From a virus: a DNA stretch of 53,159 nt. This document shows positions 33,297 through 33,630 of the stretch, piece after piece. The stretch covers positions 1-53,159 of the IMG/VR virus record IMGVR_UViG_3300024344_000019; one strand, given 5' to 3'. Positions within the stretch are counted from its first letter, which is position 1, and every line of letters begins with the position of its first letter. A model generated the notes under the pieces. It saw nothing but the letters and a program-made list of their open reading frames with translations. It was not told the origin of the DNA and searched no databases. Both the position numbers and the translations under genes were made by a program.

Positions 33297-33360
33297 TGTT
33301 TTCTCCTTTTTTATAAGCAAGTTAATCTAAATGATACCTCCTAATTGAGCGTATCACAAT

Positions 33361-33368
33361 TATTTATA
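33361..33368 (-). promoter_or_regulatory. Late-type promoter box of hsp20 (TATAAATA)
   Basis: TATAAATA on the minus strand, 64 nt upstream of the hsp20 ATG. The leader contains AGGAGG in a small hairpin (TGATAC/GTATCA) in addition to the AAGGAG next to the start. Confidence 0.6.
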
Positions 33369-33399: not shown

Positions 33400-33617
33400 A
33401 AAAAAAATATTATTGGCAGAGGTAGGTCTCACCCTCTTTATACTAACGAGTCTTACCTCGCCTATCAGACTAAGGATCCCTATCAATTCTCTGCTACAAA
33501 GACCAATGAGCCAATAAAAGTGCCGTTTTTTTGTCTCGGGTAAACGGCAAAACCCAAATCGGTGTCTTTGCGGAAGACACTCTACCTCTAATGTCAGGAC
33601 TTACGAACTGCCTTGAC
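33400..33617 (-). ncRNA. Candidate structured non-coding RNA (~220 nt)
   Basis: No plausible reading frame fills the 322-nt gap between the 105-aa gene and hsp20, but it holds a complete transcription unit on the minus strand. A TATAAATA box is at 33623-33630. Hairpins are at 33590-33620 (AATGTCA/TGACATT), 33562-33580 (GTGTCTT/AAGACAC), 33521-33549 (TGCCGTTT/AAACGGCA) and an imperfect ~14-pair stem at 33415-33462. The last is followed by AATAATATTTTTTTT, a strong T-tract ending at ~33400. The third hairpin followed by ACTTTTATT might be an internal stop. I do not recognise a known RNA family. Ends are predicted, not measured. Confidence 0.55.
33415..33462 (-). terminator. Terminator of the candidate ncRNA
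   Basis: Imperfect long stem (GGC-GAGGTA...CTC with GAG...TACCTC-GCC, one bulge, two mismatches) followed by an 8-T run at 33407-33400 on the minus strand. Confidence 0.7.
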
Positions 33618-33622
33618 ATTAC

Positions 33623-33630
33623 TATTTATA
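33623..33630 (-). promoter_or_regulatory. Late-type promoter box of the candidate ncRNA
   Basis: TATAAATA on the minus strand, 14 nt past the stop of the 105-aa gene. There is no -35 hexamer. Continues GTAATGTC, similar to other late starts here. Confidence 0.6.

Follow-up and report, generated by a model that had tools for sequence, protein, structure and literature searches.

Several pseudoknotted, structured non-coding RNAs of unknown function are encoded by phages, among them GOLLD and ROOL. GOLLD combines a conserved 3′ region with a less conserved 5′ region, and its level rises during lysis (PMC12286853). The RNA described here shares the phage origin, the pseudoknot and the lack of a known function. 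GOLLD and ROOL are, however, far larger (659 nt for ROOL env-120, more than 800 nt for many GOLLD RNAs) and lie near tRNA islands, whereas our RNA has a length of about 110–400 nt, is located between the genes for bS21 and hsp20, and is matched by neither Rfam model. OLE RNA is a structured non-coding RNA which binds ribosomal protein bS21 (PMC12054373). In most T4-like relatives our RNA has a phage gene for bS21 next to it, but OLE is about 600 nt long, is found in Bacillota and has an SD–ASD mimic as its bS21 site, and our RNA has no Rfam match.

Marine T4-like phages contain further structured RNAs, namely manA, wcaG and PhotoRC-II (PMC2864571). The first two are considered to regulate the genes that follow them, while in our case a separate promoter follows the RNA. 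In contrast to these cyanophage RNAs, none of the four cyanophages tested carries it, and Rfam contains no match to it. The same phage group, pelagi- and methylophages, also encodes a two-piece, pseudoknotted tmRNA (PMC9004378), but ARAGORN and Rfam find none at our locus, and the tmRNA of Melnitz is a separate gene (gene 86). We found no description of our RNA in the literature searched, which did not cover preprints and most subscription papers.

The locus belongs to a T4-like relative of the pelagiphages. A stretch of 53,159 nucleotides (IMG/VR record IMGVR_UViG_3300024344_000019), referred to as the window, was analysed. A sequence-only reading had pointed to its one large gene-free gap, and had assigned to the minus strand a probable new non-coding RNA with four hairpins, its own late promoter and terminator, and a second promoter for hsp20. 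The gap is indeed the largest in the window, with 323 nt not covered by minus-strand open reading frames of at least 50 residues (the next has 210 nt). Covariation, the absence of an Rfam family and the near-fixed spacing of the promoter lend strong support to the view that it encodes a structured non-coding RNA which is new and has a late promoter of its own; the transcript itself has not been shown. The predicted RNA consists of two modules, a 5′ domain (P1, P2 and an H-type pseudoknot) and a multibranched 3′ module (Table 1).

Table 1. Positions of the RNA, its structural elements and the adjacent signals in the window.
Feature	Position	Strand	Sequence	Basis or remark
Whole structured RNA	33410–33618	−		Hold-out models R1 and R2; start inferred from promoter; covariance-model match from 33626
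Putative late promoter element of the RNA	33623–33630	−	TATAAATA	Exact match; near-fixed spacing in relatives
P1 hairpin	33590–33620	−	Loop CAGUUCGUAAGU (33599–33610)	Bulged A at 33614; compensatory changes
P2 hairpin	33562–33580	−	Loop CCGCA	Compensatory forms
H-type pseudoknot	33521–33557	−		S1 and S2 covary across relatives
Pseudoknot S1	33552–33555 with 33538–33541	−	GGGU/ACCC	
Pseudoknot S2	33542–33549 with 33521–33528	−	UGCCGUUU/AAACGGCA	
3′ module	33410–33517	−		Model R2 from other phage types; loop pairing
Closing stem of 3′ module	33510–33517 with 33410–33417	−		
3′-module hairpin	33447–33460	−	Loop GUAAGA	
3′-module terminal hairpin	33418–33437	−		
3′-module loop pairing	33500–33504 with 33425–33429	−	GGUCU with loop AGACC	Covaries
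U8 tract (T8 in DNA), possible terminator	33400–33407	−	U8	Sequence
Separate putative hsp20 late promoter, which bounds the RNA gene	33361–33368	−	TATAAATA	Sequence; conservation upstream of hsp20

Covariation in the two modules

Evidence from the single sequence is weak. The folding energy of the whole RNA corresponds to a z of about −2 (−1.94), that of the single modules of the window is not significant, and thermodynamic stability was excluded from the evidence. What exceeds chance is comparative, namely covariation and hold-out models. Homologues were collected by tblastn with hsp20 and by DNA patterns, which gave about 300 stretches from IMG/VR, part of which overlap.

In the 5′ domain, 98.9% of the cells are paired (87.1% in shuffles), nine of 18 pairs have changed on both sides (5.9 in shuffles), and there are 64 double-changed cells (17.0 in shuffles). 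The covariation score was matched by none of 500 shuffles, and slid controls collapse. The check that had been set beforehand, base-pair covariation in homologues, was thus passed. The stem of P1, which carries the conserved loop CAGUUCGUAAGNC, is paired in 94.6% of the cells, while shuffles give 71% and at most 75%. Up to four Watson–Crick pair types occur at a position. P2 occurs among the relatives as GUGUCUU/AAGACAC, GUAUCUU/AAGAUAC and GUGUCAU/AUGACAC. RNAalifold, applied to a plain MAFFT alignment, independently proposes P1, P2 and S2.

All four stems of the sequence-only reading exist, but they are not four simple hairpins: the third (33521–33549) is S2 of the H-type pseudoknot and the fourth (33415–33462) belongs to the larger 3′ module. 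In the pseudoknot, S1 (GGG/CCC, GAG/CUC, AAGG/CCUU, GCAG/CUGC and others) and S2 (UGCCGU, GGCAGU, GGUAGU, GGUGGU, UACGGU, GGUCGU and others) change together in nearly all relatives. As both stems were located by a complementarity search, their pairing is 100% by construction and a shuffle control was needed. The search score was 21.8 for the real sequences against a mean of 14.4 for dinucleotide shuffles, 1.3% of which reach the real median. MAFFT misplaces S1, which was therefore measured by the anchored search with this control; the rows for L009, L034, L035 and L038, where the wrong pseudoknot was picked, are disregarded. P1, P2 and the H-type pseudoknot are supported by covariation. Loop 1 of the pseudoknot is U-rich and loop 3 is A-rich. 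Together with the U–A end of S2, the U-rich loop 1 would allow a triple-helix pseudoknot, an inference which rests partly on general knowledge of H-type pseudoknots.

The closing stem of the 3′ module alternates between GGC/GCC and GGU/ACC across relatives, and its terminal hairpin shows abundant compensatory change. The loop of this hairpin has the consensus GUGAGRCCUA, in which AGRCC pairs with an upstream GGYCU. Both covarying positions were left free in the search pattern, and all 109 unique sequences covary (U–A in 95, C–G in 14, none mixed). The 3′ module with its GGYCU/AGRCC loop pairing is part of the defined RNA family. It is absent in short-form relatives, and even close relatives may differ in its presence. 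We also observed that an invariant joiner, AGAGGUAG (33582–33589), is complementary to CUACCUCU (33418–33425) of the 3′ module, both on the minus strand. When the fold of the entire RNA is predicted, this pairing competes with the terminal hairpin; it is a possible switch, which is untested.

Distribution and relation to known RNA families

Two hold-out models, with E-values that are rough because calibration was shortened, recover the RNA in the window. Model R1 (5′ domain, clade of the window left out) matches 33518–33626 with 100 bits (E = 3.6e-18) and also finds the cultured pelagimyophages HTVC008M (1e-6) and Mosig (1e-5) and the methylophage Melnitz (8e-5). Model R2 (3′ module, built from non-T4 phages only) matches 33410–33518 (E = 9.8e-12). 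When whole records were searched, the 5′ domain was found in HTVC008M, Mosig, Melnitz (137762–137870 of the genome) and a 146-kb contig. Every complete pelagi- or methylomyophage genome tested carries it, and this search did not detect it in any of the four cyanophages, nor in those pelagi-podo- and siphophages that were included. Mosig, Kolga and Aegir have the 3′ module and HTVC021P gives a weak match to it; the module also stands alone in unrelated marine phages in several different gene contexts.

An exact-pattern scan of a genome collection of 84,980 species returned one contig, from a Rhodobacteraceae MAG, with phage-like genes. The same short contig is the single match of the 3′ model among 385 alphaproteobacterial genomes, and a host origin of the RNA was rejected on these grounds.

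An extra module (CAGCATTTGCGCTTAGTTTC...; L082 2800–2908, L286 2330–2500, L303 13696–13866, L291 5507–5618) is located downstream in Mosig and in some contigs. It gives weak matches to the 5′-domain model (E 0.0008 to 0.03) and is perhaps a second, diverged copy.

No Rfam 15 family (4,227 models) reaches its gathering threshold in the window, nor does any at the RNA of 13 related loci. At E-values up to 10, only chance matches of 11–15 bits appear in the window and the Kolga and Mosig regions. No known regulatory leader was thus matched, as the sequence-only reading had required. ARAGORN found neither a tmRNA nor a tRNA in the window, and none where the RNA lies in relatives; a tmRNA, a tRNA and a known riboswitch were rejected on the results of the two programs. 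The RNA family is new in that none of the Rfam models matched, its broad kind being already known from GOLLD and ROOL. A glutamine riboswitch (53 bits) was detected elsewhere, on a related pelagimyophage contig (L164 2499–2547), in agreement with the published report on Melnitz (PMC9004378).

Promoter, ends and neighbouring genes

The element TATAAATA precedes the loop-closing GG of P1 by 8–10 nt in all 47 window-type relatives. The late promoter proposed earlier for the RNA is thus retained, and so is that proposed for hsp20, which is conserved upstream of this gene. Promoter activity is inferred; the spacing is consistent with a transcription start inside the 5′ strand of P1. The element is not enriched in the window (seven found, 11.6 expected), and all seven are on the gene strand. 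The claim of an own terminator stands in part only. The T8 tract is present, but a U tract 3′ of the RNA is found in just 27 of 49 distinct relatives and is absent in 22, and a simple consensus scan of the window for terminators made no call. Since it is not conserved, a terminator is not a defining feature. Where the U tract is missing, some relatives have the hsp20 promoter immediately next to the pseudoknot or the 3′ module. A discrete stand-alone transcript is inferred, not shown.

In nearly all T4-like stretches the RNA is located between hsp20 and either bS21 or a 105-residue open reading frame with a weak winged-helix match. Of 84 loci, 78 have the bS21 gene at most 700 nt upstream; of 105 loci, 90 have the start of hsp20 at most 700 nt downstream. 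As the T4-like loci share ancestry, these counts are not independent.

The proximity of bS21 leaves room for an explanation which we consider possible, if on the unlikely side: the structure may serve the processing or the stability of a longer late mRNA, lying between cistrons or in the 3′-UTR of the bS21/ORF105 transcript. It would then be cut out of this transcript or protect its 3′ end, and would have no function in trans. The many relatives without a U tract would fit. The strongest point in its favour comes from the bS21-adjacent subfamily, where an extra helix, P0, extends upstream of the TATA element and encloses it in 12 of 13 sequences. This would imply a longer transcript, and because P0 reaches so far upstream, the RNA of this subfamily may come from, or also from, the bS21 transcript. 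Against this reading, all 47 window-type relatives have an own late promoter at near-fixed spacing, the gene upstream of the RNA is a different one in Melnitz, and the 3′ module is also found by itself among unrelated genes.

The position ahead of hsp20 would equally suit a cis-acting leader or attenuator of this or another downstream gene, read from the upstream late promoter, all the more as some relatives have no U tract ahead of the hsp20 promoter. A cis-leader should always lie directly upstream of hsp20, and this is not the case. The RNA remains intact where a gene of 413 residues (L007 and L053) or 323 residues (Mosig) is interposed, and hsp20 does not start within 700 nt in 15 of 105 loci. 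Further, hsp20 has a late promoter and a leader hairpin of its own past the RNA, and cyanophage hsp20 genes occur without the RNA. Being kept through changes of the flanking genes, the RNA is not merely a leader of hsp20. We rejected this as the main reading and regard it as improbable.

Some observations on these genes may be added. The 413-residue gene, of unknown function (1621–2862 in both L007 and L053), seems to have a late promoter of its own and a GGGGCTTTCGAGCCCC-T7 terminator. The hairpin in the hsp20 5′ leader (33332–33356 of the window, minus strand) has the form TGATACGC...GGTATCA, with compensated forms, and is also found in L309–L315; an AACTYGCTTA box precedes the ribosome-binding site of hsp20. 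Hairpin and box recur in hsp20 genes of pelagi-, methylo- and cyanophages.

No conserved open reading frame was found across window-type RNAs. Among 50 cores, two of the three frames are open in none and the remaining one in 13, and 27 of the 34 sequences with an ATG in P1 reach a stop within five codons. A gene for a small protein, or an element acting at the level of DNA (a palindrome for replication, recombination or packaging), is hardly credible: the window has a 41-residue open reading frame (33494–33619, minus strand), hairpin-forming repeats can act in DNA and the 3′ module varies in its presence, but this frame is broken in most relatives, and covarying G–U pairs, a pseudoknot and loop-to-strand pairing are expected of RNA instead. 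Three short annotated hypothetical coding sequences overlap the RNA, namely Mosig_00014 and Mosig_00015 in Mosig (L082 2611–2859) and gene 222 in Melnitz (L310 3805–3909); they are probably spurious.

Possible function in trans

The RNA is most likely a trans-acting late non-coding RNA, for which transcript evidence is lacking. With moderate confidence, we interpret the gap as a late phage gene for a two-module non-coding RNA of about 210–220 nt which acts in trans on a conserved partner. The RNA would be started just past TATAAATA by the RNA polymerase of the host together with the late sigma factor and clamp of the phage. The RNA would fold into a compact particle, in which the pseudoknot, through its U-rich loop 1 against the U–A end of S2 and its A-rich loop 3, is inferred to resist unfolding and 3′–5′ decay. 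The 3′ end would be set by the U8 tract here; where relatives lack a U tract, trimming that is blocked at the pseudoknot would set it. The nearly invariant loops CAGUUCGUAAGNC, CAUUGGYCUU and GUGAGRCCUA would then be presented to the partner; their invariance across unrelated phages is taken to indicate a conserved partner and not base pairing with a variable target.

The translation machinery, with ribosomal protein bS21 as an example, is a candidate partner because of the proximity of the bS21 gene and the precedent of OLE RNA. The bS21 gene also adjoins the 3′ module in the siphophage records Kolga and Aegir. bS21 or the ribosome is the best-motivated partner; the case is weak and there are no binding data. 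In the fetched flanks of 57 stand-alone 3′-module loci (a slightly generous set, which includes a few T4-like fragments such as L252) no bS21 gene was found, and bS21 was rejected as an obligate partner of the 3′ module. An SD-like GAGGU is found in the P1–P2 joiner of window-type RNAs. The mean across subfamilies was reached by 16 of 200 shuffles, and an SD mimic in this joiner is not above chance. Both results weaken the candidate. The more specific proposal, an undescribed modular RNA class in which a pelagimyophage-specific pseudoknot domain, fused to a module that unrelated siphophages and other phages also have, forms a trans-acting late particle that binds the translation machinery, possibly phage bS21, and redirects host ribosomes, is doubtful.

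Pelagiphages are among the commonest viruses of the ocean, yet the only structured RNA genes for which we found a description in them are tRNA, tmRNA and a riboswitch. While its mode of action is unproven, the RNA provides a defined locus with a covariance-tested structure in the cultured phages HTVC008M, Mosig, Melnitz and Kolga. It is held under compensatory selection, and its 3′ module is common to unrelated phages of the most abundant bacteria of the ocean, which suggests a common host target.
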